Assembly (NCBI GenBank): GCA_900314525.1
Contig: OMVN01000006.1
Span: 24,651-88,650 of the forward strand
Origin: an uncultured Eubacteriales bacterium
GTDB taxonomy: Bacteria; Bacillota; Clostridia; Lachnospirales; Lachnospiraceae
Length of the DNA: 64,000 bases
Reading direction: 5' to 3'
A program made the position numbers and the translations under genes. The first letter of the stretch is position 1. The number at the start of each line of letters is the position of its first letter. The notes beneath the pieces are model-generated. The model made no database searches. It was not told the DNA's origin and was given only the letters and a program-made list of their open reading frames with translations. This document shows, piece after piece, positions 11,174 through 34,430 of this stretch.

Positions 11174-11178
11174 TTACA
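11109..11178. repeat. Two nested palindromes interrupting the Rhs Hint domain
   Basis: Two adjacent inverted repeats lie here: CATCGCCCC (11109-11117) with GGGGCGATG (11140-11148), enclosing an inner ATGCC-TTC-GGCAT hairpin, and TGTAAAGTTTT (11154-11164) with AAAACTTTACA (11168-11178). Together they fall exactly between the first block of the Hint domain and its continuation, and supply the stop codon that ends the Rhs protein. They look like a small inserted repeat element, but no second copy occurs in this window. Confidence 0.6.
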
Positions 11179-14100
11179 CAAATTTAACTATTGTGTCGCC
11201 TGTAAAGCAATTACAACCAAGTGTTAAAATTCCGATGGCAAGTCTGACTGTTGCTACTGCAATCTTTTCTGGATCCTTACTTTCTATTGCTTCAATTAAT
11301 CCAAATGTATCTTGACCTATATTAACTAATTTTAATATAAATGCTGCTGATTCTCCAAAAACTGCAGTTACTACACATGAAATCAATGACTGTACAATTA
11401 GACCTCTTACAATACACATTGCAACATCAAGAACAGTAGCTTCACCACAGAATACCATTCGCATTGTTGTAGCAACATCATATGCTGTCACTGCAAGATT
11501 TGCAAGTGTAAGCATTTTCTGAAGACTAAATCCAGGTGTAATTATTGTATTAATTGTTGCCTGGATTCCCTGTGCAACGCTTGTTTCCATTAACGAGAAA
11601 TTACCAGTTGGGTCTGTGTACATTACAGGATTTCCATTTGCATATAAATATTTATGAAGACTTACCGGATTATCTAATGTTCCTGCGTAAGTATCCATCG
11701 TTGTAAATGTACCTGTTTCAGGTGATAAATAACGAGCTCTTAAATAATACAAGCCTGTTGATTCATTGTACTGTTCACCTGTGTAGAGATAATCATTGTC
11801 TGTATCTCCATTTTTCTTTAATAGTATACCATATGAATCGTATGTATAGGTATCTGTTATTTTTGAATTTTCTACAAGGGCTGTTACTGAACCATGTCCG
11901 TCCTGGATGTAGGTTTTGTGATTATTTACTTCACCTATAATATCAGCACTTATTAATTCAAGTCCTCTTGTGTAATACTTATTAACTTTGTATGTGTTAT
12001 CTGTATTCTTTGAAAGTTCTAAGGCAACCTGTGTAAGCCCCCCGTATGTATCGTTAAGATAGAATACTTTTTCTTCTTCATTTACCTGCTTGCTTATTCT
12101 GTTTCCTTCGAAATCATATGAATAACTTTCTATTGTTACAGAATTTCCACTGCTTATTGTTGCAGTTAATAACTTATTTTCTGCATCGTATGTGTATGTC
12201 TTATCTTTTGTTCCATGCTCTGATGTAAGATTTCCATTGTCATCATATGTGTAACTGATTGTGGAAATGTCTGCATCTGTTGTTTCTGGATTTACAAATC
12301 CTTCTATTTCAGGAATCTTTGTTGTTTCAGATTTCGTAAGCTGGTTAAGTTCATTGTAGGTGTAGATTGTATTTCCTTCTTCTACATCTTCTGTGTAATC
12401 ATTTACATCACCTGTAACCTTAGTTGTTTTTCCTGTTCTGTTGCTTACATTATCAAAGGCATATTTATTTTCAATAGTTCCCTGATATGTTAAGGTAGCT
12501 GCCTTTAATGTTACATTTTCTGAATCAAGATTTACAACATCTAAAAAGTTAACATTGTCATTAATGCTAATCTTTTCTTCTGTAAGTCTTAATAGTTCAT
12601 CATAAGTATATTCGTTAGTGATGATTCTCGCTGTAGTGTTTTCTGAGGATTCTCGTGTAATTTCAACTGCTCTTGTTTTTTCTCCTGCCTTGCCATAGCT
12701 GTAATCGTAGAACATTAAGACATTTGAATCTTTGTCAGTTACTATTTCATTTATAAGTCTTGAACATACATCATATTTATATGAAACTGTAAGTCCACCT
12801 TCGTGCTTAACTTTTGTTCTGTTTCCTAAGGAATCATATTCATAAACGGTTGCTACTCCATTATGATCAATAACTTTTACAAGTCTGTCCATTAAGTCAT
12901 AGCTGTATGATGTTGCTGCAACATCTTCGCCATTTACATTATATGTAATCGAACTTATTTTTTCATTGTCTGCATATGTGTACTTAATTGTTCCAAGGTC
13001 ATATGTTGTCTTTGATGCAAGTCTTCCTAGCTCATCATATGAGTAGCTTACATCTCCCTTAGAATCAGTAACTTTACTTAATCTTCCAAGAGAATCATAT
13101 GTGATATTTACAACACCATCTTTATTAGTTTTCTTAATGAGTCTGCCTAAGCTGTCGTATGAATATGTCACTTCATTTCCAGCATAGTCAACAAATGAAG
13201 TCTGATAACCATTTTTATCATATTTGAATTCTGCTGATTTTCCTGCAGCATTTGTTGTTTTTATTAATCTTCCTTCTTCATCATATGTATAACAAGTTGC
13301 ATTTCCATTTGCGTCTTCTACCTTTGTTAGTTCATATGTTTCATCATATGTGTATGTATATTTATTACCTAATGCATCTTCCACTGATATTAAGTTATCT
13401 GCACCATCATACTCATATTTTGTTGCATTTCCATTTCTATCTATCTCTTTAGAAATTCTTCCTCGCTTGTCATATTCTGTCTGTTCCTTTGTTCCATCAG
13501 GATAGATTTCTGCAACCTGATTGTCATTGTCATCATATTCATATTCAAATGTATTACCATTTGCATCCTCAGTCTTAATTAACTGTGAGCGGTTATTGTA
13601 TGTAAATCTTGTTACATTTCCGTATGCATCTTTTATTGATGTATTTCTATTCATATTGTCATATGTGTATTCTGTTACTCCACCTGTGACACTTGTAAAT
13701 GTTAATACATTTCCATTTGCATCGTATGTATAATTTTCCTTTGTTCCGTCGGCATATGTTTTACTTGTAAGTCTGTTAAGTACATCATATTCCATGGAAA
13801 CAGTAATTCCGTATCTGTCAGTTGCTTTGATGTTATTTCCGTTTTTATCATATACAAATGTTTCATTTGTTCCATCTGGATATGCCACATATGTTAAGTT
13901 ATCTTCGCTATCATATGTGTATTCTGTTCTAAGTCCATCTGATGAAATTGTTGCAGTTACATTATTCTTATAATCATATTCATAGCTTGTAACCATTCCT
14001 GTATTGCTAATTTTTGATGTAATATTTCCTGCCTTGTCATATACATATCTTGATGTATATTCTTTCTTTTCACCATTTTCTGTTCTTGTTACAGTAACAC

Positions 14101-17100
14101 CTGTACATCTGTTTTTCTCATCGTATTCATATGTAGTTGAATTCTGATTGCCATCTCCTAATGAAATTAAATTTCCATCCTCATCATACTGAAGTTTTTT
14201 GACCATGCCTATTTCATCTGAAATCGAAGAAAGTTTTCCATCTTTTTCATATGTTAAGTCTGTTTTATTTCCAAGGGCATCGCTCATTTCAGTTAAATTT
14301 CCCTTCGAATCATAATCCATACTTACTAAAAGCTTGTCATCTACTTTTATGCTGTTTACAATATTTAAATCACTGTATTCTAGCGCTTCTTTTGTTCCAT
14401 CTGCTGCTATAAGAGTTTTAAGATTACCATCATTATCTCTCTCATACTTTGTAGTATTTCCATTTGCATCTGTTGATTCTACAAGTTCATTATCAGCATC
14501 ATATTTATTAGTAGTTGCATTTCCAAGCGCATCAATTGTCTTAATCACATTTCCATTATCATCATAGTAGAATACTGTCGGATTACCATTTCTATCTCTG
14601 ACAACTTCCATTTTTGCATCAAGGTCGTGCTCATACTCTATTCTATTTCCGTTAGAATCTACAGTTGCTTTTAGTCTGCCATTTTCATCATATTCATTTC
14701 TTGCAACTGGCTTTCCTGATGGATCAAGAATTTCTACAAGATTATGATCATTGTCGTATGAGTAAATAATATTTCTTCCTGCATAGTCAGTTGTTAATAC
14801 AAGATCACCATTGTCATCATAACCGTATTTTATAGAATTAATTATATTATTTTTGCTGTCTGTTTCAGTTGCACTAATTACTCTGCCTTTGTTATCTCTT
14901 GTAAATTTGATTCCATATCCATCTGAATGTGTGAATCCATTTTTACTGTAACTTACTGTATTTCCATTAGAATCTTCTCCCTTTGTTATTCCCTTATCCG
15001 GTGAAAGATACATCTTTGTTCCATCTTCCGTGGTAAGAATAAAGTTCTGGCTCGCTAACAGGTCTGTATCTTCAAATATAAGAGTATTTCCTTCTAATAA
15101 AGCTGTATTATCTCCATCTATAGTCAGTTTTTTTGTTTTATCTGTATCACATACAAAATTCACCTCTACCGTACTTACTGGAATAAATACACTTCTCTCT
15201 GGACTTAACTTAAGACTGAATTTATCACTTGTTCCATCTCCATAAGTTACTGTGATATCATGATTTATAGTCTGTTCAATGTAATATGTTGTTGATAGTC
15301 TGTTACCCAGCTGTACTTGATTATAACCTTCATGTAATGGATTACTAAGTGTCAGTTTTACACTCTGCATTCCAAGACTCCATCCATAACCAAAATCACC
15401 AGATGATTTATTTCTGCTGTCATAATTTCTGTTTACCTGCAATGGGATGCCTGCAACATTTGAACTAATGTCTGTAAATCCTAAAGACATATTTCCTACT
15501 TTAAGATTTCCTACTACATTAACTGTTCTTTCTGTCGTAGTTCTGTTTCCACCATTATCAACTGCAATAAGTCTTAATGTATAACTTCCATTCATAAGCA
15601 TTGTAGTGTCAAGTTCACCTAGCTTTCCATTTTCAATGCTTTCATATCCTTTTGCTATCTCTTTATAATCATCTGTGCCATTTAATTTATATTCTAAAGT
15701 ATAGTAGGCGAGACCTGTTTCATCTTTGACCGTACCAATAATATCTGTTTTAGCTTTTACATCAACGTCTGATTGAGGTGAAATAAAATCCGCTGTTGGA
15801 TATGCTTCATCACTTCTATCAAAGAATCTAATCTTTTTTGTAACTGATTTTAAATCTCCATCCACTATTGCTGTAAATGTGATATTAGCAATGCCTGCAT
15901 CATTTTTTGTAACGGATACTTTTTTGTCATCTAATATTACATCTGCTTCACCTGAAGTTACGCTGATATCTTTTGCATTTTTAGGGTATGCGATATAACC
16001 AGTTACCGTATCTCCTACATCTGCAACAGTATTTTGGAATACAAGTGCCAGTTCTTTGTTATCTGCCTCACCATTATTTATTGTACCATCTTCATTGACT
16101 GTAAATGTGTAAATTGTAGTTCTTGTGTTCCCTGACTCATCGTTTGCAGTTACCTCAACTACATAATCTCCTGTGCTGTATTCTGTAAATTCATATGTGG
16201 CAATATCCGCATTATCTACGTTTGCACTACCAGTAGTAATAATTACTTTGTCACTACTACCTTTTCTTCCTGTTGTTATCTTATACTCTTTTAAATGTTC
16301 ATCTGTAATTGAACCTGTAAGTTTGATTTTTAAAATTTTATTTTCAATTGCTGCATCCAAATCAGCAAAAATATCAGGTGCTGTTTTATCTTCATTCTCA
16401 TCAACCTGACCTGCCTTATACGTGAACTCAGCTTTTGAGATGCTTGTATTTTCTGCCGAGTCTTTTGCTGATAATTCTACTTCATAAGTTCCATCAGATA
16501 AATTTTCTAAATTAATATTTCCAAGTTCGGCAGAATCTTCATTTTCATTGCCTTTTGCAATAATAATCTTTACTGATTCATTTGATTTATTAAAATAGGT
16601 CAATGTGTATTCTGAAAGCTTTGTTTCATCTGATACAGAACCTATCACCGTTAACGTATTTCTATCATTATCAATTGCTATATTTTCAATTGCTGTAACT
16701 GGTGGAATACTGTCAGTTTCTTCTTTACTCACTGTAATAGTAAGACTTTCTTCTGAAGTTAATCCCGCCTCATCTTCTGCTGTGATTTTGTAGCAATAAA
16801 CACCTTCTTCAAGTTCATCTGTATTAATCACACCAATAAATCCATCTTTAATAGCTTCTATGCCTTCAGTAATGAGAACTTCTTTGTTGTCATCCTCACC
16901 TGATTTTGTTCTTGTCACTTTATAACTCTTTAGTTTTCTATCATCTGTAATCGAACCTTTGATTTCCACAACTCCAGATATTTTACCATCTTTTGGTGAT
17001 GTAATATTAATTTGAGGTGGTGTTATGTCTCTGTTATCTATTACCGTTATTGTCTTGTATTGTGTTGTTACATTTCCTGCAATATCTGTAGCTACAACAG

Positions 17101-19423
17101 ATATCGTTATAGTCCCAGGCTCTGATGGTGTGAGTTCATATCTGTCATAACCATCTCCAATTAGCTGGTCGTTACACTTAATTTGAAAATTTGCTACTCC
17201 GTAATTATCCTTTGCAAAACCTTCAACATATACGGTTTCACCAAGCTTAATTTCACTTTTACTTACATTTAATGTCACTACTGGAGCTTCTTTATCATCA
17301 GGCTTGGTATATACTCTTGCATCATCTGTATTTATGCTGATAACTGCTGGTCTGCTATATGTTCCCTCTAAATCTTTTACGACATATTTAACAAGATAGG
17401 TTTTCCCCATATGTACCTCAGCTGGAAATCTTCCTTCCGTCCATTCTGTGTCACTTATCTCCTTGTAATAAAAATATTCCTCCCTGATTCCTTTTCTCTC
17501 ATCCTGTGGATGGTCAGAATCATATGCAGAATATGTTACATTTGCAATACATCTGTTAGAATCCTTATTTGACTGCATTATATCAGACCTAATCTCAGCG
17601 ACTGGCCTTGTCTGTGCAACAATAAGTTTTTCCACTTCATCTGTATCTGACCATTTGGCATATCCTGCCAATGCAGAATTACCTTTTGTAGGATTGTCAC
17701 TGATTCTATGAGTTATTGCATAGGCTCCTACATTTTCAAACATTGTCATTGGTTCAGACTGTACAATATTTTTTATTTCTCCACTGTTATCGAACAATGA
17801 TGGATCATATGTATATATCCATTCATCAGATCCTTTGTCATCATTTTCAAGATCACTGTATGTGCCAATGTAATCAAGCTTTTCATCTGTGGTAACTGTT
17901 GCTTCTATTGAATAATTCTTTTCCAGAATATCCGTTTGGATACTTGAAATAATATGATTCACAGCCTCTGTGACAAGCTTATCCTGTAATATTTTACTGT
18001 CTTTATCTACTGAAATATTTGTATTCTCACCATTATTCTCTATTATGTTTAATAAGTTATTATATGAACTTATGGACGTGTCATTCCCAATCCCATAGAA
18101 TTTAACGTCTTTTGACATTAATGCAGAAGCTACATCAGCACTTCTTTTATTATCGGATAATTCTGGAATTACTGCATCACTTAAGTTGATAACATAATGG
18201 TTAGTTCCAGGTGTCCACACATGATTCTTGACAACATCAGAGAGACTCTCCCCTGTAATATTCTGCATTACAATATTTTTAAATGTGAAATATGACTGCT
18301 GTTCACAACAATGCCATTCGTGACTTATTATTGGTCCATATCCATAAGCATCTACTCCATCATCTGGAAGAACATACTGGTTAATAATAATCTTATCACC
18401 GTCATATACAGTAATTACATTGCCTTCTATAATTATCTTAAAATGGTGATTTGCATACACATTAGAAATATCAAATGTCTGAAGTAAATTTCCTGCATTC
18501 TGAACATATTCATATGAACCATTTCTAAAATTGTTTAAATCTGTTTTATTTATTTTAATCAATTTAAGACCGTATACAGTAACTAAAATGCAATATCCCT
18601 GAATATAGTTTTCTTCTTCGGAAACAACTGTATTAAACAGGAACCCGCCACCTTCCATACTGTGCCAGTCTGTATTATCTCTCTGAAGATCAAAGTCAAA
18701 GACTTTTCTTGTAGCATCAGAATCTTCAACATATAAAAAATCTTTTAGTGGATAACAAGAATATCCTAACATTTTTATATCCTTACCATCGTACACAATG
18801 TGCTTAGGCAATGTAGGAAGATAGTTATCATCATAGTTATAATGGTCATATTCCTTCCATGCAAATGTGTCTGTTGCTGTCAATGCCGAAGTACTAACAG
18901 TTGTAACATTGGCATCAATACCTTTTTCCTTTAGCTTGTCAGAAACCAGTTTACTTGCCTCTGAATAAGCATTCATTACATCTTTATCAGCGCTTCCCAC
19001 TGTAAAAATAATATCTGCATTTTTACTTTTTTCTACAGTCACCTTTGAATTTGGTGCCTGGTTTGTGATCTCAAATATTTTTTCTGTACTTCCTGATAAA
19101 TAAAATGAATCATCAATTAATTCAGGAATTGTATCTGTAAATGTTTCTTTTACATCAAGTATAATTTTATATTTACCTACATTTTCTAATGCATAATTAA
19201 TCGAGTTTCCGTCTCCATCTCTTTCGTCGATAACTTCTGCATCATCATACGTTCCATCATTGTTTGAATCATAAAATAATTTATAGTGCCTTGAAATAAT
19301 TTCATCACCAATTTCAGCCATTGATTCATCACTAACAGTAATATTTGTCTTTCCACTGCTGTTTCTTATAAATATATCCTTAGTATCTGTATTTTCCCCT
19401 TCGCCTGCTGAAAGATTTATCAC
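11174..19423 (-). CDS. Giant Rhs/YD-repeat secreted protein, main part (continues from the frame upstream)
   Basis: This 2749-residue frame is the body of an Rhs-type protein. Its N-terminal 600 residues include a von Willebrand-like/wall-anchoring-type region, then several Ig/cadherin-like modules (about residues 620-1300, for example DKEAPVVTLNVSKSEIKLGE), a start-of-Rhs block (GYGWSLGMQSVKL), several dozen YD repeats of the pattern YDxxGN..., and the Rhs core closing motif LRARYLSPETGTFTTMD with YANGNPVMYTDPTGNF. A hydrophobic pre-toxin stretch precedes CNCFTGDTIVKFV, the first block of a Hint autoprotease (Cys2739), where the frame stops. The listed start is a GTG inside the gene: the same frame is open further upstream to about 19615, where a one-base shift links it to the signal-peptide part. 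Such proteins encapsulate or display a C-terminal effector; here the effector is lost. No immunity gene is visible. Confidence 0.85.
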   Translation of the reverse strand: MINLSAGEGENTDTKDIFIRNSSGKTNITVSDESMAEIGDEIISRHYKLFYDSNNDGTYDDAEVIDERDGDGNSINYALENVGKYKIILDVKETFTDTIPELIDDSFYLSGSTEKIFEITNQAPNSKVTVEKSKNADIIFTVGSADKDVMNAYSEASKLVSDKLKEKGIDANVTTVSTSALTATDTFAWKEYDHYNYDDNYLPTLPKHIVYDGKDIKMLGYSCYPLKDFLYVEDSDATRKVFDFDLQRDNTDWHSMEGGGFLFNTVVSEEENYIQGYCILVTVYGLKLIKINKTDLNNFRNGSYEYVQNAGNLLQTFDISNVYANHHFKIIIEGNVITVYDGDKIIINQYVLPDDGVDAYGYGPIISHEWHCCEQQSYFTFKNIVMQNITGESLSDVVKNHVWTPGTNHYVINLSDAVIPELSDNKRSADVASALMSKDVKFYGIGNDTSISSYNNLLNIIENNGENTNISVDKDSKILQDKLVTEAVNHIISSIQTDILEKNYSIEATVTTDEKLDYIGTYSDLENDDKGSDEWIYTYDPSLFDNSGEIKNIVQSEPMTMFENVGAYAITHRISDNPTKGNSALAGYAKWSDTDEVEKLIVAQTRPVAEIRSDIMQSNKDSNRCIANVTYSAYDSDHPQDERKGIREEYFYYKEISDTEWTEGRFPAEVHMGKTYLVKYVVKDLEGTYSRPAVISINTDDARVYTKPDDKEAPVVTLNVSKSEIKLGETVYVEGFAKDNYGVANFQIKCNDQLIGDGYDRYELTPSEPGTITISVVATDIAGNVTTQYKTITVIDNRDITPPQINITSPKDGKISGVVEIKGSITDDRKLKSYKVTRTKSGEDDNKEVLITEGIEAIKDGFIGVINTDELEEGVYCYKITAEDEAGLTSEESLTITVSKEETDSIPPVTAIENIAIDNDRNTLTVIGSVSDETKLSEYTLTYFNKSNESVKIIIAKGNENEDSAELGNINLENLSDGTYEVELSAKDSAENTSISKAEFTYKAGQVDENEDKTAPDIFADLDAAIENKILKIKLTGSITDEHLKEYKITTGRKGSSDKVIITTGSANVDNADIATYEFTEYSTGDYVVEVTANDESGNTRTTIYTFTVNEDGTINNGEADNKELALVFQNTVADVGDTVTGYIAYPKNAKDISVTSGEADVILDDKKVSVTKNDAGIANITFTAIVDGDLKSVTKKIRFFDRSDEAYPTADFISPQSDVDVKAKTDIIGTVKDETGLAYYTLEYKLNGTDDYKEIAKGYESIENGKLGELDTTMLMNGSYTLRLIAVDNGGNRTTTERTVNVVGNLKVGNMSLGFTDISSNVAGIPLQVNRNYDSRNKSSGDFGYGWSLGMQSVKLTLSNPLHEGYNQVQLGNRLSTTYYIEQTINHDITVTYGDGTSDKFSLKLSPERSVFIPVSTVEVNFVCDTDKTKKLTIDGDNTALLEGNTLIFEDTDLLASQNFILTTEDGTKMYLSPDKGITKGEDSNGNTVSYSKNGFTHSDGYGIKFTRDNKGRVISATETDSKNNIINSIKYGYDDNGDLVLTTDYAGRNIIYSYDNDHNLVEILDPSGKPVARNEYDENGRLKATVDSNGNRIEYEHDLDAKMEVVRDRNGNPTVFYYDDNGNVIKTIDALGNATTNKYDADNELVESTDANGNTTKYERDNDGNLKTLIAADGTKEALEYSDLNIVNSIKVDDKLLVSMDYDSKGNLTEMSDALGNKTDLTYEKDGKLSSISDEIGMVKKLQYDEDGNLISLGDGNQNSTTYEYDEKNRCTGVTVTRTENGEKKEYTSRYVYDKAGNITSKISNTGMVTSYEYDYKNNVTATISSDGLRTEYTYDSEDNLTYVAYPDGTNETFVYDKNGNNIKATDRYGITVSMEYDVLNRLTSKTYADGTKENYTYDANGNVLTFTSVTGGVTEYTYDNMNRNTSIKDAYGNVTRFTYNNRSQLIKTEDANGNTFEYEYDDNDNQVAEIYPDGTKEQTEYDKRGRISKEIDRNGNATKYEYDGADNLISVEDALGNKYTYTYDETYELTKVEDANGNATCYTYDEEGRLIKTTNAAGKSAEFKYDKNGYQTSFVDYAGNEVTYSYDSLGRLIKKTNKDGVVNITYDSLGRLSKVTDSKGDVSYSYDELGRLASKTTYDLGTIKYTYADNEKISSITYNVNGEDVAATSYSYDLMDRLVKVIDHNGVATVYEYDSLGNRTKVKHEGGLTVSYKYDVCSRLINEIVTDKDSNVLMFYDYSYGKAGEKTRAVEITRESSENTTARIITNEYTYDELLRLTEEKISINDNVNFLDVVNLDSENVTLKAATLTYQGTIENKYAFDNVSNRTGKTTKVTGDVNDYTEDVEEGNTIYTYNELNQLTKSETTKIPEIEGFVNPETTDADISTISYTYDDNGNLTSEHGTKDKTYTYDAENKLLTATISSGNSVTIESYSYDFEGNRISKQVNEEEKVFYLNDTYGGLTQVALELSKNTDNTYKVNKYYTRGLELISADIIGEVNNHKTYIQDGHGSVTALVENSKITDTYTYDSYGILLKKNGDTDNDYLYTGEQYNESTGLYYLRARYLSPETGTFTTMDTYAGTLDNPVSLHKYLYANGNPVMYTDPTGNFSLMETSVAQGIQATINTIITPGFSLQKMLTLANLAVTAYDVATTMRMVFCGEATVLDVAMCIVRGLIVQSLISCVVTAVFGESAAFILKLVNIGQDTFGLIEAIESKDPEKIAVATVRLAIGILTLGCNCFTGDTIVKFV

Positions 19424-24202: not shown

Positions 24203-24261
24203 GTCATTCTCTCCTGTCAAACTTATTTCATGGAAATAATTATAAACCCTCATGTTTCATT

Positions 24262-24290
24262 TTGCAATTTTAGTTTCACTGAATTATAAT
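24262..24290 (+). promoter_or_regulatory. Promoter of the GNAT gene at 24328
   Basis: TTGCAA (24262-24267) and TATAAT (24285-24290) are 17 bases apart, 37 bases before the start codon. Confidence 0.65.
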
Positions 24291-28062: not shown

Positions 28063-28069
28063 GTGCAAA

Positions 28070-28096
28070 AAGAGAAGTCGTATTACGACTTCTCTT
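28070..28096 (-). terminator. Terminator after the CBM26 wall protein gene
   Basis: AAGAGAAGTCGTA pairs perfectly with TACGACTTCTCTT around a single base, with T's following on the minus strand. Confidence 0.85.
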
Positions 28097-28123: not shown

Positions 28124-28999
28124 TTAAGCGTTAACTTTCTTTTTAGAAGCTACTACTGCGATAGCTGCGATTGCTGCAAGTGCAAGTGTAGAAACTGCTA
28201 CTGCATCACCAGTCTTAGGTGAGTTTGTATTAGATTTAACTCCTGTACCAGCTGCTGCTGTTGTTCCTGCTGCTGTTGTTCCTGCTGCTGTTGTTCCTGC
28301 TGGAGTTGTTGTTCCTGCTGCTGGATCTTCGTAGTGCGGATTTAAGTGGTGCAAACCTGTTGTTCCTGCTGGAGTTGTTGTTCCTGCTGCTGGATCTGCT
28401 GTTCCATCTGCTGCTGGAGCTGCTGATGAAGGGTAGTTAGCTGGAGGTGTTGTTGTAACCATATCGCTCTTTCCGATAACGATTAAGCTTCCTGATTCAT
28501 TTCCATCATAGTTGATATAGTAATCAGAAGCTGCTTCTGATCCTTTCTTAATCATGATGTTAGGTGTCTGATGTTTTCCATTAGAATCTGTAGTGATTCC
28601 AGCTGCCTGAATCTTAGCGATATCAGCATCTGATGTTGTATCTGTTGCAACGCTATCACCAACATAGTTGTTGAAGATCATCATTGATCCCTTGCTGAAG
28701 TCTGTGTATGTACATGTTACTTTGTACCAGTCATTTCCTTCTGCTTCCATTGTAGCACCTGGCCAGATTGGCTCATGAGGAGCTGTTCCGTCTATTGTGT
28801 CTTTAAGTACACATTTGTCAAGTGGAAGACAATCATCTTTCCAATCGATACTCTGTTTTACCCAAGCGCCAACTTTATCCCATTTGCTTGCGTTATAGAA
28901 ATGATATGTAACTGTTGTATCAGCGAATGCTGAAACACCCATAGCTAATGTCATAGCTGTTGTTGCTGAAACTGCAAAAATTTTCTGTAATTTTCTCAT
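28124..28999 (-). CDS. Secreted starch-binding (CBM26-like) protein with KTGD wall-sorting tail
   Basis: The 291-residue product starts with a signal peptide (MRKLQKIFAVSATTAMTL, cleavage likely after SAFA). Residues about 30-175 form a CBM26-type module: TYHFYNASKWDKVGAW, EPIWPGATMEAEGNDWYKV, MIFNN and QTPNI are the usual landmarks. A Pro/Ala/Gly/Thr-rich linker follows, then NTNSPKTGD, a hydrophobic helix and KKK, a variant sortase signal. I choose the start at 28999 because AAAGGAG lies ten bases before it; an upstream Met at 29044 has none. The linker contains a 41-base exact duplication around a foreign-looking segment. It is the last of four similar monocistronic genes and probably holds starch at the wall. 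Confidence 0.88.
   Translation of the reverse strand: MRKLQKIFAVSATTAMTLAMGVSAFADTTVTYHFYNASKWDKVGAWVKQSIDWKDDCLPLDKCVLKDTIDGTAPHEPIWPGATMEAEGNDWYKVTCTYTDFSKGSMMIFNNYVGDSVATDTTSDADIAKIQAAGITTDSNGKHQTPNIMIKKGSEAASDYYINYDGNESGSLIVIGKSDMVTTTPPANYPSSAAPAADGTADPAAGTTTPAGTTGLHHLNPHYEDPAAGTTTPAGTTAAGTTAAGTTAAAGTGVKSNTNSPKTGDAVAVSTLALAAIAAIAVVASKKKVNA
28288..28397. repeat. 41-base direct repeat in the linker of the CBM26 gene
   Basis: Bases 28288-28328 and 28357-28397 are identical over 41 bases. They are separated by 28 bases (28329-28356) of different composition that encode LHHLNPHYE in an otherwise low-complexity AGTTP linker. The period, 69 bases, keeps the frame. Confidence 0.8.
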
Positions 29000-29063
29000 T
29001 TTATTCATTCTCCTTTTATATTTGGTTTTTGTAAAAGTGTACACACTCTTACCGATTGGTTTA

Positions 29064-29092
29064 ATTATATAACATCACAGTATAATTTGCAA
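29064..29092 (-). promoter_or_regulatory. Promoter of the CBM26 wall protein gene
   Basis: On the minus strand TTGCAA (29087-29092), 17 bases, TATAAT (29064-29069), with TGTGATGTTA before the -10. It is one of four near-identical promoters in this cluster. Confidence 0.75.
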
Positions 29093-29172
29093 TACCTTTT
29101 TAATATTATTTTATTTAATATTTGCACAATGTCCAAATATTAATAGTATTTTTTATGCAATATTAACAAAAA

Positions 29173-29203
29173 AACTGACAGATTGTTAATCAACCTGCCA
29201 GTT
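29173..29203 (-). terminator. Terminator after the membrane-anchored paralogue
   Basis: On the minus strand AACTGGCAG pairs with CTGTCAGTT (one G-T pair) and is followed by seven T. Confidence 0.8.
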
Positions 29204-29220
29204 AATAATATTTCTAATTA

Positions 29221-30090
29221 TTAGTTAGATTTTTTGCTTTTAGAAACAACTACAGCGATTACTGCGATAACAACTACAGCTACAACTACTAATACGATTG
29301 GCATTGTGTTATTGCTATCTTTCTTGTCATCTTTGTTATCTTTCTTTGCTTCTGTTGTTTTCTCATCTGCTTTTGTTTCTTTTTTATCATCTGAAACCTT
29401 TGCATCATCTGATGAACCACCAGCTAAAGCTGTTATTTTCTCTCCGCCTTCTAATTCAAGACACTGATTAACGAATTCTAAGTATGCTTTGTCATCAAAG
29501 TAAACTGTACTCTCTTCATATCCATCACCAACGATAGCTTTCTTAGAAAGTGCTACGAAATTCCATGACTCTTCATCTTTTGAATGATATCTTACATTTA
29601 ATTCAACGTTCTTCTTATTCTGGATAAGACAAACAAAACCTTTTGTTGGGTTCATGTATACTTTATATTCTGCTGGCTGTAAGTCACCTACAACTTTGAA
29701 CTGTGACTGGTTATCTGCCCATGCTGATTCTGGAATACCAAGACACATCTGATAGTTCCATGCAAACTCCTGTCCATCTGCAAGTACTTTGAACTGTCTG
29801 CTGAGTTCCATTGGATCTTTCTTAGGATCTTCATTTGGTGTCTGATCTGATGGTAATGCATATGTGCTTGTGAATGAATATAAATCATCCTGTCCATCAA
29901 CTGCTGTAAAGTTCTGTGTATCTAATGTTGTAACCCAACCAATCTTGTCATTTCCCTGATCTGCATCTCCGAAAAGATTTGGATTACCTACAAACTGATA
30001 AAAATCAGCTGCGAATGCTGAAACGCTCATTGCTGCTGCCATAGAAACAGCTGCTGCTACTGTAGCAACTTTTTTAATTACTTTTTTCAT
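29221..30090 (-). CDS. Secreted protein of unknown family with membrane anchor, paralogue of the gene at 30266
   Basis: The 289-residue product begins with a signal peptide (MKKVIKKVATVAAAVSMAAA, cleavage after SAFA) and then DFYQFVGNPNLFGDADQGND. Residues about 28-205 are closely related to the next protein upstream, differing at scattered positions. Then comes a Lys/Asp/Glu-rich linker and a hydrophobic helix (MPIVLVVVAVVVIAVIAVV) with SKKSN at the end; unlike its neighbours it has no KTGD motif, so it should stay in the membrane rather than be linked to the wall. Start chosen at 30090 by AAAGGAGA nine bases upstream. I do not recognise the globular domain; location beside starch-binding proteins suggests a glycan role. 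Confidence 0.8.
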   Translation of the reverse strand: MKKVIKKVATVAAAVSMAAAMSVSAFAADFYQFVGNPNLFGDADQGNDKIGWVTTLDTQNFTAVDGQDDLYSFTSTYALPSDQTPNEDPKKDPMELSRQFKVLADGQEFAWNYQMCLGIPESAWADNQSQFKVVGDLQPAEYKVYMNPTKGFVCLIQNKKNVELNVRYHSKDEESWNFVALSKKAIVGDGYEESTVYFDDKAYLEFVNQCLELEGGEKITALAGGSSDDAKVSDDKKETKADEKTTEAKKDNKDDKKDSNNTMPIVLVVVAVVVIAVIAVVVSKSKKSN

Positions 30091-30144
30091 TATTAAATTT
30101 TCTCCTTTCAAATTGTTGCAAATTCTGCAACTAACTACTTGCCT

Positions 30145-30173
30145 ATTATATATCATCAGATAGTTTTATGCAA
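30145..30173 (-). promoter_or_regulatory. Promoter of the membrane-anchored paralogue
   Basis: On the minus strand TTGCAT (30168-30173), 17 bases, TATAAT (30145-30150), with CTGATGATA before the -10. Same design as the neighbouring secreted-protein promoters. Confidence 0.75.
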
Positions 30174-30215
30174 TATAAAATTGCCAATGTTTTGTATAAA
30201 ATGCATAAAAAACGG

Positions 30216-30235
30216 GGGAATGTTTTCACATTCCC
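30216..30235 (-). terminator. Terminator after the KTGD paralogue
   Basis: On the minus strand GGGAATGTG pairs with ACATTCCC around a short A-rich loop, followed by CCGTTTTTT. Confidence 0.75.
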
Positions 30236-30265
30236 ACAAAAATTGACTAATTATGTCAAACTATA

Positions 30266-31123
30266 TTAAGCTTCTTTTCTTTTTGCTGCTACTGTAACTG
30301 CTACTGCTGCAGCTAATACTGCTAACATAGCAACTGGAGCAACATCACCAGTCTTAGGTGAGTTTGTATTAGACTTAACTCCTGTACCTGCTGTTGTAGC
30401 TGGCTGTGTCTCTACTGGAGCTGCTGTTGTAGCTGCCTCTGTTACTGCTGGAGCTGCTGTTGCTGCTGGAGCTGCTGCACTTCCAAGACCTAAACATTTG
30501 TCAACAAATGCTTTATATTCATCATCTTTGAAGTAAACTGAGCTATCTGCATAACCATCACCAATAATTGCTTTTCTTGTTAATGCTACAAAGTTCCAAG
30601 ATTCTTCGTCTTTTGAATGATATCTTACATTTAATTCTACACTCTTGTTGTTCTGTATAATACATACAAAACCTTTCTTAGGATCCATGTATACTTTGAA
30701 TTCACCTGGCTGGAAATCTCCAACTACTTTAAACTGTGACTGGTTATCTGCCCATGCAGATTCTGGAATACCAAGGCACATCTGATAGTTCCATGCAAAA
30801 TCCTGTCCATCTGCAAGTACCTTAAACTGTGTACTTAAGTTCATTGGATCTTTCTTAGGATCCTCGTTAGGAGTCTGATCAGAAGGAAGGGCATATGTAC
30901 TTGTATAAACATATAAATCATCCTGACCATCTACTGCTGTAAAATTCTGTGTATCAACTGTTGGAACCCATCCAATCTTATCATTTCCCTGGTCAGCGTC
31001 ACCAAAAAGGTTTGGGTTACCTACGAACTGATAAAAGTCAGCTGCAAATGCTGACACACTCATAGCTGCAGTCATTGAAGCAGCTAAAGCTACTGTTGCA
31101 ATCTTCTTTACTAATTTTCTCAT
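30266..31123 (-). CDS. Secreted protein of unknown family with KTGD wall-sorting tail
   Basis: The 285-residue product has a signal peptide (MRKLVKKIATVALAASMTAA, cleavage after SAFA), the same globular region as the gene at 29221 (starting ADFYQFVGNPNLFGDADQ and containing NQSQFKVVGDFQPGEFKVYM), an Ala/Thr/Pro linker and a tail NTNSPKTGDVAPVAMLAVL with RKEA at the end. The tail is nearly identical in DNA to that of the CBM26 gene (28124), which points to recent exchange of anchoring modules. Start chosen at 31123, after AAAGGAG. The two paralogues differ mainly in how they are anchored. The globular domain is not one I recognise. Confidence 0.8.
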   Translation of the reverse strand: MRKLVKKIATVALAASMTAAMSVSAFAADFYQFVGNPNLFGDADQGNDKIGWVPTVDTQNFTAVDGQDDLYVYTSTYALPSDQTPNEDPKKDPMNLSTQFKVLADGQDFAWNYQMCLGIPESAWADNQSQFKVVGDFQPGEFKVYMDPKKGFVCIIQNNKSVELNVRYHSKDEESWNFVALTRKAIIGDGYADSSVYFKDDEYKAFVDKCLGLGSAAAPAATAAPAVTEAATTAAPVETQPATTAGTGVKSNTNSPKTGDVAPVAMLAVLAAAVAVTVAAKRKEA

Positions 31124-31178
31124 TTTTCTTTTTTCTCCTTTCATACTCATTGCTTTCGCAACTCTCCGTTTGATAATA

Positions 31179-31207
31179 ATTATATATCACTTATTACCAA
31201 TATGCAA
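31179..31207 (-). promoter_or_regulatory. Promoter of the KTGD paralogue
   Basis: On the minus strand TTGCAT (31202-31207), 17 bases, TATAAT (31179-31184), with AGTGATA before the -10. The 145 bases between it and the terminator at 31353-31381 hold nothing I recognise. Confidence 0.75.
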
Positions 31208-31352
31208 CCAGATTTTTACAATTTTATGTACGTAATATACAATAGACTACTTCTAAAATCATGTAATCTCTTCTAGTGTGGTCTCATATATCTTTTGATT
31301 GATGTCCACTGAGTTGAATATTATTTTCCATTTTACTCATTCTACATATAAA

Positions 31353-31381
31353 AAAGGGAAATGCATAATGCATTTCCCTTT
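31353..31381 (-). terminator. Terminator after the 31410 gene
   Basis: AAAGGGAAATGCAT pairs perfectly with ATGCATTTCCCTTT, with T's following on the minus strand. Confidence 0.85.
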
Positions 31382-31409
31382 AAGTATCTTATTTAGATTC
31401 AGTTTCTAA

Positions 31410-32411
31410 TTAAGCTTCTTTTTTCTTAGCTGCTACTGTAACTACTGCTACTGCTGCTACTAAAACTGCGAATAAAGCAACTGGTGCAACATCACCTGTC
31501 TTTGTTGACTGGTTAGCTGCTGTTGTAGCTGTTGCAGCCTTAGCTGCTGGAGCTGCTGTTGTTGCTGCTGGAGCTGCTGTTGTTGCTGCTGGAGCTGCTA
31601 CTGTTGTCTCTTCTGCTGCAGCTGCTGTTGTTTCATCTGCTACTGTTGTTGTCTCTTCTGCAACTGTTGTCTCTTCTGTTGTAGGCTCAACATATTTTCC
31701 GTCGATCTTATCGCTAAGAGCTGAGTTGATTGCTGCAAAATCAGGAATTGCTGTAATTCCTAATGCTTCAACATCACCTTTTCTATCTGTTTCATTAAGA
31801 CCTGCTACGAAATCATCTAATGACATAGCTGATAATTCTTCTAATGAGTAATATGTTTCATTATCGTCATTTGTAATCCATCCAACTTTATAAGGAATAT
31901 CATTGTTATCTTTATCACGGATAACTACTGCGTTTGTTGTGCTATCAAAGTATACTGTAACAGGTGTCTCTTCAGCTGTTTCTACTCTGATGTTTGTTAA
32001 ACATGTTTTTCCTAAGCTTTCTAATACGTTCTTCTTTGTTGCTGCTGTGTCACCAAGAACGATTCTCTGCCAAGCAACGTTTGCTCCATCAACTTCGTCG
32101 TCATTTGCATATGCACAGATTGCAAATCTTGAAGCCCACTGGCTTTCTTCATCATATGCTGGCATTGTGATATCCATAGAATAAACACCTGCGATGTCAT
32201 TTCCATTAACATCTTTTGCCTGCTGCATAACATTTGCATCATCCATTGATTCCCAACTTGGATCTGTCATGTTTCCTGTAAGTGTGTAAACAAATGTTCC
32301 AGCTGGAATTGAAGCTGTGTCAAGATCAGCTGCGAAAGCTGTTGTTCCAAGACCCATTACCATTGTTGCAGCGAGCATAGCAGCTGCCATTTTTTTAATA
32401 GATTTTCTCAT
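31410..32411 (-). CDS. Secreted protein with repetitive linker and KTGD wall-sorting tail
   Basis: The 333-residue product has a signal peptide (MRKSIKKMAAAMLAATMVMG, cleavage after TAFA), a globular region of about 200 residues (GTFVYTLTGNMTDPSWESM, then MQQAKDVNGNDIAGVYSM and ENVTVYFD-like strands) that may be a carbohydrate-binding fold, a linker of repeated TTVAEETT and APAATTA units, and a tail STKTGDVAPVALFAVLVAA with KKKEA. The start at 32411 is preceded by AAAGGGTGG. It is the first of the four genes in transcription order and shares their promoter design. Function is unknown; by context it probably binds glucan at the wall. Confidence 0.78.
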   Translation of the reverse strand: MRKSIKKMAAAMLAATMVMGLGTTAFAADLDTASIPAGTFVYTLTGNMTDPSWESMDDANVMQQAKDVNGNDIAGVYSMDITMPAYDEESQWASRFAICAYANDDEVDGANVAWQRIVLGDTAATKKNVLESLGKTCLTNIRVETAEETPVTVYFDSTTNAVVIRDKDNNDIPYKVGWITNDDNETYYSLEELSAMSLDDFVAGLNETDRKGDVEALGITAIPDFAAINSALSDKIDGKYVEPTTEETTVAEETTTVADETTAAAAEETTVAAPAATTAAPAATTAAPAAKAATATTAANQSTKTGDVAPVALFAVLVAAVAVVTVAAKKKEA

Positions 32412-32475
32412 AATAAAATCCACCCTTTCTTTTTTCTCTTTTCTTTTTGTTTTTGACATTCTAGTCAGTAAACTT

Positions 32476-32504
32476 ATTATATATTAATCACTATTATATT
32501 GCAA
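32476..32504 (-). promoter_or_regulatory. Promoter of the 31410 gene
   Basis: On the minus strand TTGCAA (32499-32504), 17 bases, TATAAT (32476-32481), with GTGATTAATA before the -10. The A+T-rich 168 bases from here to the amylase terminator show no other feature. Confidence 0.75.
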
Positions 32505-32711: not shown

Positions 32712-34430
32712 TTATTTTAATATTACAATAGCATTTGGAGGAAGCACAATAGTGTCATCTACCTGATATGGTTCCTCTTCTGTTACGCTTAACTCACCCT
32801 GAATACATGTATATCCATTTTCAGTTCTTGATAATTTAACCTGCTTTGTCTCATCATTGTTGCAGTTTGCAAGTATTATTATCTTACTTCCATTATATGT
32901 TTTAGAAACTGACATGATGTCCTCATCACCAGTCTCAATCTCTGCAAGCTGTCCTCTGGCAATTTCAGGGAAAATGTTTCTAAGTTTAAGTGCCTGTTTA
33001 ACATATGAAAGAACTGAATTCTTGTCCTTTTCCTGGTTATCTACGGCCTCAAAACTGTTTATTACATAATCCTTAGTCATATTGACAGGACCTCTTGTCT
33101 GTCCTTTTGTATCTTTAGCTGACCAAATCATTGGTGAACGTTTATTCTCATCTGCTCCTGAACCACCAAGTCCTATTTCATCTCCGTAATATATGAACGA
33201 TGCACCATTTATCATCATCTGAAGTCCCTGTGCAAATTTGATTCTGTTTTCTTTATATGCAAGGTATGCTGCTGGTCTGTCAATATCATGGTTGCTTAAA
33301 AATGATGCCTGTATAGCGTTTGGATTTGCTGCCTGCACCTCATTCTGTGACTGAACTAGACAATCTGCAAAATATTTTCCGTTATATGCAGGATCTGTTC
33401 CATGAGTAATATGTGATAATTCTCCATCCGATCCTGAATAGCTAAAATCAAAAGCACTGTCTATTCCACTTGTGAGATATGTTGCATAATCAGAAGTCCA
33501 TGTTTCTGCAACTATATATGCGTTTGGATTTACGCTCTTTACATAATTATTGAACCATGTAAGCACTTCAACATTTTTCTGTGTTTCTCCAGAGAAATAT
33601 TCTTTTGCAGCATCAAGTCTGAATCCATCAACACCCATATCCAGCCAGTATTTTGAAATCTGCTCAAATTCTGCCCTTACATCTGGATTTGCAAGATTAA
33701 GATCTGGCATCTGCTGTGAGAACTGTCCAAGATAGTAATATGGTGTTGATCCCACTGGGTAATAAATGCTTCCCTTCTTTTCTTTTGTAAATGTGTAATA
33801 ATCTACATATTTACAATCTGCAGGATTTGGTTCCTGGTCTGCAGGGAGACTCTGTAAATACTGTTTTGCCTGTTTAAACCATTCATTTGCTATAGATGAA
33901 TGATTCATTACAAGATCCATTATTACTGTAATTCCACGTTTGTGGCATTCATTAATTAAATTTTTGAAATCATCTAATGTTCCATATGCCTTATCAATTT
34001 CGCGATAATCTAATACATCATATTTGTGATATGATGGCGAAGGATTTACTGGCATAAACCAAATTGCATTACAACCTAAATCAGTATCTGTTTCTGGATT
34101 TCCATCATTAATGTAGTCCAGTTTCTGTATAACTCCGTTAATATCCCCCATTCCATCCCCGTCGCTGTCATAAAATGAACCGACAAAAATTTCATAAACA
34201 TTTCTGTTATTGTCTTCAATAACATTTAATTTTGTCTGAAGCTGTGGTTTAACTTCTGTTCCCTCAACTTCAAGTTTTCTGGTTGTCTCAGCTTCTTTAG
34301 CTGACTCAGTCTGAGCTTTTCCACCACTAGTTTTCTTGTTTGACTTGCCACATCCTGTAAATACAGATACAGAAAGTGTTAACGCCAGGGCAAATGCTGC
34401 CGACTTTTTAACGAATTGATTTCTTCTCAC
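32712..34430 (-). CDS. Alpha-amylase family GH13 lipoprotein
   Basis: The 572-residue enzyme is predicted to cleave alpha-1,4-glucans outside the cell. It has a lipoprotein signal peptide with lipobox FTGC (Cys near residue 26), a Lys/Ser/Glu-rich spacer and a full GH13 domain: region I DLVMNHSS, region II GFRLDAAKEYF with the nucleophile Asp near 272, region III IVAETWT with the acid/base Glu near 308, and region IV FLSNHDIDRP near 378. A C-terminal beta domain ends the protein. Start is GTG after AGGAG. It lies 20 bases after the Bax-inhibitor gene, so the two look co-transcribed. It has no binding module of its own; the four wall proteins next to it may supply this. Confidence 0.93.
   Translation of the reverse strand: MRRNQFVKKSAAFALALTLSVSVFTGCGKSNKKTSGGKAQTESAKEAETTRKLEVEGTEVKPQLQTKLNVIEDNNRNVYEIFVGSFYDSDGDGMGDINGVIQKLDYINDGNPETDTDLGCNAIWFMPVNPSPSYHKYDVLDYREIDKAYGTLDDFKNLINECHKRGITVIMDLVMNHSSIANEWFKQAKQYLQSLPADQEPNPADCKYVDYYTFTKEKKGSIYYPVGSTPYYYLGQFSQQMPDLNLANPDVRAEFEQISKYWLDMGVDGFRLDAAKEYFSGETQKNVEVLTWFNNYVKSVNPNAYIVAETWTSDYATYLTSGIDSAFDFSYSGSDGELSHITHGTDPAYNGKYFADCLVQSQNEVQAANPNAIQASFLSNHDIDRPAAYLAYKENRIKFAQGLQMMINGASFIYYGDEIGLGGSGADENKRSPMIWSAKDTKGQTRGPVNMTKDYVINSFEAVDNQEKDKNSVLSYVKQALKLRNIFPEIARGQLAEIETGDEDIMSVSKTYNGSKIIILANCNNDETKQVKLSRTENGYTCIQGELSVTEEEPYQVDDTIVLPPNAIVILK

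Follow-up and report, generated by a model that had tools for sequence, protein, structure and literature searches.

Four minus-strand open reading frames (ORFs) lie side by side in contig OMVN01000006.1 (positions 24,651 to 88,650), a 64,000-nucleotide stretch from an uncultured Lachnospiraceae bacterium. This whole stretch is called the window, and positions are counted from its first letter. The genome of the window comprises 2.36 Mb in 72 contigs. The four genes encode secreted proteins, named here, in gene order, BR, D1, D2 and CBM26p. Together they probably form a conserved starch-binding surface system made from known module types. A GH13 enzyme gene adjoins the BR end of the set. Two genes that we take, from their sequences, to be a diacylglycerol-kinase-like gene and rpoD follow CBM26p. 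The genes are as follows.

28124-29044, minus strand: CBM26p, CBM26-type module at about residues 42-190, Gly/Thr/Ala/Pro-rich linker, NSPKTGD sorting tail
29221-30156, minus strand: D2, D module (X25-like), charged linker, plain C-terminal membrane anchor
30266-31150, minus strand: D1, paralogue of D2, D module, Ala/Thr linker, NSPKTGD sorting tail
31410-32459, minus strand: BR, one X25-like module at about residues 43-185, STKTGD sorting tail
32712-34430, minus strand: GH13 alpha-amylase-type enzyme with a lipoprotein-like start (Pfam alpha-amylase, 254.7 bits)

The start codons listed for the four ORFs, when read by eye, were too far upstream. Likely starts are 28999 or 29008 for CBM26p, 31123 for D1 and 32411 for BR. 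For D2 the listed start precedes the end of the -10 element, and the real one, also read by eye, is probably 30090. The initial annotation of this DNA, made from the letters alone, had described three KTGD-type sorting signals, one plain membrane anchor, and an adjoining amylase lipoprotein that lacks binding modules. All of this was borne out. The sorting tails read NSPKTGD in CBM26p and D1 and QSTKTGD in BR, D2 ends in a hydrophobic helix and a lysine tail without a sorting motif, and the amylase gave no binding-module match in Pfam, its lipoprotein-like start being judged by eye.

Identity of the binding modules

The CBM26-like module reported earlier in one of the proteins was recovered: CBM26p matches Pfam CBM26 (PF16738) at 28.4 bits, against a cut-off of 28.1, and all 11 aligned members of its family match CBM26 at E<=0.01. 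The domain said to be common to two proteins was recovered as well, since D1 and D2 are 67% identical overall and 84% identical over the domain. No Pfam or NCBIfam family was matched above its curated cut-off by D1, D2 or BR.

The initial annotation had given BR a separate, beta-rich domain and had put forward this and the D domain as undescribed glycan-binding folds. Profile alignment does not sustain either idea. With signal peptides and tails removed, the D and BR profiles align with one another in hhalign at 99.0% (E 2e-18, 124 columns), and neither aligns with CBM26p (0.9% and 1.1%). D and BR are one family, and the two undescribed folds were rejected. Profile searches of the two domains had also been advised. 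Against an X25 profile built of 16 segments from class-wide matches over the cut-off, BR reached 96.7% (E 4.6e-10). The value for D was just 49.7% (E 1.7e-4), and that for CBM26p, included as a control, 1.7%. In Pfam, four of 26 domain-only members matched X25 (PF22058) at E<=1, all under the cut-off, the best with 24.0 of the required 27 bits. D is joined to X25 because it aligns with BR and BR aligns with X25. The X25 likeness of BR therefore has fair support, and D is weakly placed there, mainly via BR.

AlphaFold2 gave good models for D1 (mean predicted local distance difference test score, pLDDT, 82.7; predicted template modelling score, pTM, 0.84) and BR (pLDDT 87.9, pTM 0.89). In Foldseek, the best PDB match of the BR model was X25-2 of Ruminococcus bromii Sca5 (7rpy), with a probability of 0.97. 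According to PMC9112005, 7rpy is a maltotriose-binding structure, and the X25 pair of Sca5 binds maltotriose via Trp, Lys, Trp, Glu and Asn side chains. Of the D columns that correspond to X25 ligand residues, K75, W85 and N101 are kept in 12/12 rows and W26 in 10/12. In BR, W26 is kept in 14/14 rows, W85 in 13/14, the Lys in 9/14 and the Asn in 8/14. These counts use 12 of 15 D rows and 14 of 18 BR rows, and they are suggestive only, because the correspondence comes from a remote profile alignment. Across all 15 rows of the D alignment, K75, W85, D100 and N101 do not vary. Taken together, D and BR look like divergent X25/SusE-type starch-binding modules, a known fold type.

Concerted evolution of D1 and D2

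Three genomes carry both D1 and D2. The two domains are 84, 86 and 78% identical within these genomes, whereas same-type domains are only 48-53% identical between the three species. The D domain of a nearer relative, G007, is 78% identical to D2 and 74% identical to D1 of G009. The linker and anchor behave differently: D1 and D2 are 22-33% identical there within a genome, and between species the D1 proteins are 41-47% and the D2 proteins of the three species 20-33% identical. At the DNA level, D1/D2 identity per 45-base block is 67-96%, mostly 75-91%, over a stretch that begins at about the signal peptide and ends with the domain. In the block that comes next it drops to 31-56% in all three pairs; the domain edge lies near codon 206-214 of the D1 reading frame.

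Trees gave the same picture. In the domain tree, D1 and D2 pair by genome (support 100/99, 99/97 and, for G009, 89/76), and a D1 clade was rejected by the approximately unbiased (AU) test (p 3e-46). In the tail tree all four KTGD-type tails group together (100/100), and within-genome pairing of the tails was rejected for the two pairs included, that of G009 being left aside (p 7.6e-5 and 2e-4). The p values of the AU tests are not clean, because identities or trees were already in view when the groups were picked. Of the two trees, that of the tails carries less weight in the argument, since the tails are short and compositionally biased. Because the domains are closer within a genome than between species while the KTGD tails group together, the D module is homogenised between wall and membrane anchor types, which is concerted evolution. 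The pattern is explained by gene conversion or by a domain copied repeatedly between the two existing genes; the chief alternative is convergence of the tails. Three of the four KTGD-type D proteins have mixed tails, similar to CBM26p tails in the residues ahead of TGD (77-100%) and to other D1 or BR tails in the part behind it. These mixed tails also point to shuffling within the cluster.

The same modules on dockerins in relatives

Modules of the set also occur on dockerin proteins in two relatives, G004 and G009, which have 21 and 13 dockerin matches in total. In G004, one protein combines BR, a CBM26-type module and a dockerin (55.9 bits), and the next gene encodes a cohesin and a dockerin. 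The CBM26-type module is 64% identical to that of the window over 159 residues by BLAST and 61% identical in the tree alignment. A second, partial G004 protein reads BR+LRR+BR+CBM26+CBM26+dockerin (LRR, leucine-rich repeat). G004 also has a cohesin match, under the cut-off, in a protein ending in PKTGD. In G009, a protein carries CBM26 (30.3 bits, over the cut-off) and a dockerin, and its module is 80% identical to the wall-anchored copy of the same genome. A single origin of the dockerin-borne CBM26-type modules of G004 and G009 was rejected (AU p 2e-39). The dockerin-borne forms in the two relatives are of separate origins.

The genome of the window has one dockerin, in another protein (Cadherin-like plus dockerin). 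No cohesin match was found in that genome, and no dockerin or cohesin on the set proteins. A short G009 protein (L196:365-937, C268) has a BR-like signal peptide, an apparent C-terminal piece of BR and half a dockerin, without a binding module; it is perhaps what is left of a BR protein that carried a dockerin. The Hungate1000 paper (PMC6118326) discusses numbers of dockerins and the amylosomes of R. bromii. PMC9763041 reports dockerin-bearing proteins with GH13 in rumen genomes, so amylases on dockerins are no novelty in the rumen as such.

Conservation and neighbourhood of the set

The records of relatives with the set name them 'Lachnospiraceae bacterium RM5', 'Lachnospira sp. UBA2821' or uncultured Lachnospiraceae or Clostridiales, and one record title contains Goat_Cecum. 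Isolates labelled RUG are rumen genomes. A D profile search found D-type proteins in nine of 10 genus genomes, the exception being G004. Of 51 non-genus genomes, G023 alone gave a clear match. Seven other genomes gave weaker matches (E 1.6e-5 to 0.009), mostly on signal-peptide or tail positions. A collection scan added a second non-genus relative with a D-type protein, L053; an earlier collection scan with two query sequences had given no match. Among 299 family genomes searched with the BR profile, just G000, G005 and G023 had clear matches to the module. Eleven low-E matches in other family genomes were set aside as linker, tail or signal-peptide matches, judged from profile positions.

Eleven loci were read: the window, nine relatives and L053. 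The diacylglycerol-kinase-like gene and rpoD follow the set in 10 of these, and in the eleventh the contig ends. A GH13 lipoprotein-type gene, judged by eye, precedes the set in seven; in three of these it is the immediate neighbour, and in four a single opposite-strand gene separates the two. In G008, the end of a GH13 gene and a BR-like gene lie together on another contig, and the amylase is not beside its set. The gene order of the set differs in G023 and L053, and G001 has a BR+D fusion protein. The two non-genus relatives (L043:2805-5708 and L053:4464-6182) have tandem BR modules, in about four and about two copies, with Ig-like repeats (by eye) in place of a sorting signal. In two relatives (L040:6345-7811 and L041:7548-9524), a gene lies between BR and D whose SHGCIN motif is L,D-transpeptidase-like.

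The genome of the window has 22 alpha-amylase-domain matches in 17 open frames (frames counted by eye) and nine CBM26 matches, eight of them over the cut-off. Five GH13 frames of 1046-1327 residues also carry CBM26. At L153 (G000:C62:8000-23485), four large secreted proteins are encoded next to each other, three of them GH13+CBM26 frames of 1046-1296 residues. Elsewhere in the window, an RHS-type protein of 2749 residues with 14 RHS-repeat stretches and a DUF6531 domain is encoded at 11174-19423 on the minus strand.

Promoters and terminators

Each gene of the set has its own promoter and terminator, located as follows.

29064-29092, minus strand: CBM26p promoter, TTGCAA-17-TATAAT
30145-30173, minus strand: D2 promoter, TTGCAT-17-TATAAT
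31179-31207, minus strand: D1 promoter, TTGCAT-17-TATAAT
32476-32504, minus strand: BR promoter, TTGCAA-17-TATAAT
28067-28096, minus strand: CBM26p terminator, hairpin and T tract, read from the sequence and folded, missed by the terminator scan
29173-29203, minus strand: D2 terminator, from the terminator scan
30216-30235, minus strand: D1 terminator, from the terminator scan
31353-31381, minus strand: BR terminator, from the terminator scan

Four secreted genes, each with its own terminator and all with one promoter type, were what the initial annotation had described, and both statements stand: a hairpin and T tract follow all four genes as well as the amylase, and exact TTGCAW-N17-TATAAT occurs at six sites in the window, compared to 0.16 expected, four of them upstream of the set genes. 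The GTGAT/TGAT word that it had placed next to the -10 element was confirmed in part. TGAT is present in all four spacers, but its distance from the -10 element varies.

The promoter type was followed across species with 39 set genes in the 11 loci. It is upstream of all 39, exactly in 30 and with one mismatch in nine, and the best-scoring site has a 17-nucleotide spacer and a perfect TATAAT in every case; candidate sites were scored against TTGCAW and TATAAT with a spacer of 17 preferred in ties, which leans towards a uniform picture. The -35 element is TTGCAA in 28 genes, TTGCAT in two, TTGAAA in six and another single mismatch in three; TTGACA was found in none. A score of 11 or 12 of 12 was reached by 39/39 set genes, compared to 17/116 other genes and 1/39 mononucleotide-shuffled upstream regions. 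One base before the -10 element is the usual place of an extended -10 TG. No TG was found there in the 39 genes, and a TG ending three bases before the -10 element was found in 24, compared to 1.8 expected. One promoter design is thus upheld for the set and extends across species. Genome-wide, there are 24 exact TTGCAW-17-TATAAT sites and 31 exact TTGACA-17-TATAAT sites. Two divergent, overlapping exact TTGCAA-17-TATAAT promoters lie at 24239-24290, between a peptidase M3 gene and a gene that we assume to be acetyltransferase-like.

Anchors and sortases

A (S/P)PXTG motif followed by a hydrophobic stretch and a basic tail is present in CBM26p and D1 (SPKTGD), and BR deviates with STKTGD. The NCBIfam srtB_target and NPXTG models score the tails under the cut-off. 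The genome of the window has eight sortase-domain matches. Three of its proteins are over the class B sortase cut-off (TIGR03064), and one class B sortase apparently has a counterpart in 10/10 genus genomes, judged by size and score only. According to PMC4155245, SrtB of Clostridioides difficile, a class B sortase, cleaves SPKTG peptides, one of them with SPKTGDN. The KTGD signals are probably used by a class B sortase. A search for a sortase that recognises SPKTGD, which the initial annotation had advised, yielded three class B candidates. The BR tail, QSTKTGD, is not an SPKTG motif.

One further sortase of the genome is class-D-like, under its cut-off, and adjoins a small secreted protein with a TGA-type tail. 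Such a protein, of about 180-190 residues, lies directly upstream of the sortase gene in all four genomes read (L141:1269-2511 in G000:C52, L148, L149 and L150). The two possibly form a dedicated substrate pair.

Comparison with known systems

The comparisons with R. bromii follow PMC9112005. Like Sas20 and Sca5, the set proteins are non-catalytic and carry CBM26-like and X25 modules with flexible linkers, and Sca5 joins X25 modules to a sortase signal, as X25-like modules are joined to sorting tails here. Unlike in Sas20 and Sca5, each module in the window organism is a separate small protein with its own anchor. X25-2 of Sca5 is a tandem pair that shares one ligand, whereas the modules of the window are single. 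In CBM26p an extra stretch precedes the Gln-Thr motif, whereas loops A and B of Sas20d1 come after Q127 and N130, the two being compared by motif only. A Sas20d1-type reading of CBM26p was not supported, as the extra stretch precedes the QT motif and there was no relevant PDB sequence match. One R. bromii protein, for which the paper uses both tags RBR_02940 and RBR_09240, is a predicted cell-wall-anchored Sas20d1-like protein with a CBM26-like module, a linker and a sortase motif and without a dockerin, which is the plan of CBM26p; the likeness is by description and not by sequence. Its gene sits between those for alanine-tRNA ligase and a probable endonuclease and not beside binding proteins (PMC9112005).

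Two of the three sorted proteins have SPKTGD and in this resemble the C. difficile SrtB substrates (SPKTG/PPKTG; PMC4155245). They differ from these substrates in that BR has STKTGD and in that the genome of the window has its eight sortase-domain matches.

A third point of comparison is given by SusE and SusF of Bacteroides. Both are Gram-negative outer-membrane proteins with tandem modules, encoded in one operon. Here the organism is Gram-positive, the modules are mostly single and each gene has its own promoter. By description (PMC9112005), the two systems would share a non-catalytic role in binding starch at the surface, X25-fold modules and an amylase system close by. No paper describing this gene cluster was found in the literature, in a search whose coverage mostly excluded subscription journals.

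Proposed function of the set

The architecture, the promoters, the conservation, the single D/BR family, the homogenisation of D and the occurrence on dockerins are results of computation; the ligand, the actual display at the surface, the choice of sortase and the benefit to starch use are inferred from here on. Each protein has a signal peptide and a single module of starch-binding type, which is CBM26-like in CBM26p and divergent X25/SusE-like in D1, D2 and BR. A long, flexible linker leads to the anchor, either a KTGD sorting signal, probably for a class B sortase, or, in D2, a membrane helix. The proteins would hold starch particles or malto-oligosaccharides near the cell. The captured glucan would be supplied to the lipoprotein amylase and to the large secreted enzymes with GH13 and CBM26 whose genes lie at other places in the genome. 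Such a role would be akin to that of the Sas20/Sca5-type proteins of R. bromii, without cohesin-dockerin assembly in this genome. By this analogy, the best reading of the set is that it corresponds to the starch-binding layer in the amylosomes of R. bromii but does not depend on cohesins. We consider it likely that these are non-catalytic alpha-glucan-binding surface proteins of a gut or rumen Lachnospiraceae bacterium. The surface glucan-capture system of the initial annotation is supported by CBM26, by GH13 in seven of 11 loci and by the 17 GH13 frames; its two new folds have to be given up.

Several results weigh against a starch-binding role. The CBM26 match in CBM26p covers profile positions 27-60, that is, 34 of 70, and 32-37 residues lie between IFNN and Gln in 11/11 CBM26p rows; given the usual layout of CBM26, this extra stretch is taken to be an insertion. 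The CBM26 modules of the two G004 proteins score under the Pfam cut-off (25.3 and 27.9 compared to 28.1 bits), despite which the CBM26-type modules of this genome match the CBM26p family strongly. None of the window's own modules is over the Pfam X25 cut-off, and the genome gave no X25 match at E<=0.01. The match of the BR model to 7rpy has an E of 0.014 and a template modelling (TM) score of about 0.3, with 0/317 matches at E<=0.001, and the D model gave 0/198 PDB matches at that threshold. PDB sequence searches with D, BR and combined profiles found no significant X25 match, the best being 7rpy at E 0.75 and rank seven. The BR of the window also has Ala at the Lys column.

Further points of this kind come from the promoters and the dockerins. 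The neighbouring GH13 gene does not have this promoter class; it scores nine or 10 of 12 in the five loci scored (nine in the window). A genome-wide starch regulon under TTGCAW-17-TATAAT was not supported, since 20 other exact sites had no recognisable amylase next to them; this check used the first residues of the next ORF only, without a family search, and a few sites had no ORF in the fetched piece. Some of the 20 sites fall inside ORFs. Because these sites are not before recognisable amylase genes, the promoter class alone does not show starch regulation. No GH13 was found among the 15 scanned proteins whose dockerin is over the cut-off (14 of G004 and G009, one of the window's genome; several partial), so the dockerin complexes of G004 and G009 need not be amylosomes.

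Two other explanations were weighed. The proteins may have carbohydrate-binding folds with a ligand other than starch, either a different glycan, such as a capsule, a mucin or a polysaccharide of host or plant, or the organism's own wall, the amylase beside the set being coincidental. In favour of this stand the placing of D at only 49.7% against X25, the amylase away from the set in four of 11 loci, and other scanned dockerin proteins of G004 and G009 that carry LRR, transglutaminase, Ig-like, chitobiase-C and, weakly, M26-peptidase domains instead of GH13. We nevertheless judge it unlikely given that CBM26 is matched in all 11 aligned members, that CBM26-type modules are fused to BR in two G004 proteins, that GH13 is the neighbour in the other seven loci and that K75, W85 and N101 are kept in 12/12 D rows. 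More improbable still are abundant structural or display proteins of the wall under strong constitutive promoters, with starch binding secondary or lost. The residues of binding type kept in D, the homogenisation of the domain and not the tail between D1 and D2, and the movement of CBM26-type modules onto dockerins in two lineages all speak against this reading, even if small proteins with long linkers, and a 17-nucleotide spacing with TATAAT in 39/39 genes that the five neighbouring amylase genes scored do not share, would suit a structural role.

A wider proposal can be made, though we hold it tentatively and with somewhat more doubt than confidence. The starch-binding module would be the conserved unit and the anchor interchangeable. 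D would be kept near-identical by gene conversion on wall- and membrane-linked proteins, and modules would have moved separately to dockerins. The sortase-based, cohesin-independent capture layer and an amylosome-type layer would then be alternative end states of one system, the anchored form standing under a dedicated promoter class, TTGCAA-N12-TG-N3-TATAAT.

What is new here is the recurrence of the set in gut Lachnospiraceae, the concerted evolution of D1 and D2, and the occurrence of the modules on dockerins in two relatives. The exchange of anchors and the concerted evolution are the parts that a specialist would not expect. How Gram-positive bacteria of the gut and rumen hold on to insoluble starch has been worked out mainly in R. 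bromii, and the set offers simple, expressible single-module domains with which starch holding may be studied. The sharp promoter class is a handle on a regulator or a sigma preference. That one binding domain is found with a wall anchor, with a membrane anchor and with a dockerin amounts to a natural experiment, and the concerted evolution of D1 and D2 raises the testable question of why one module is kept at two depths of the envelope.

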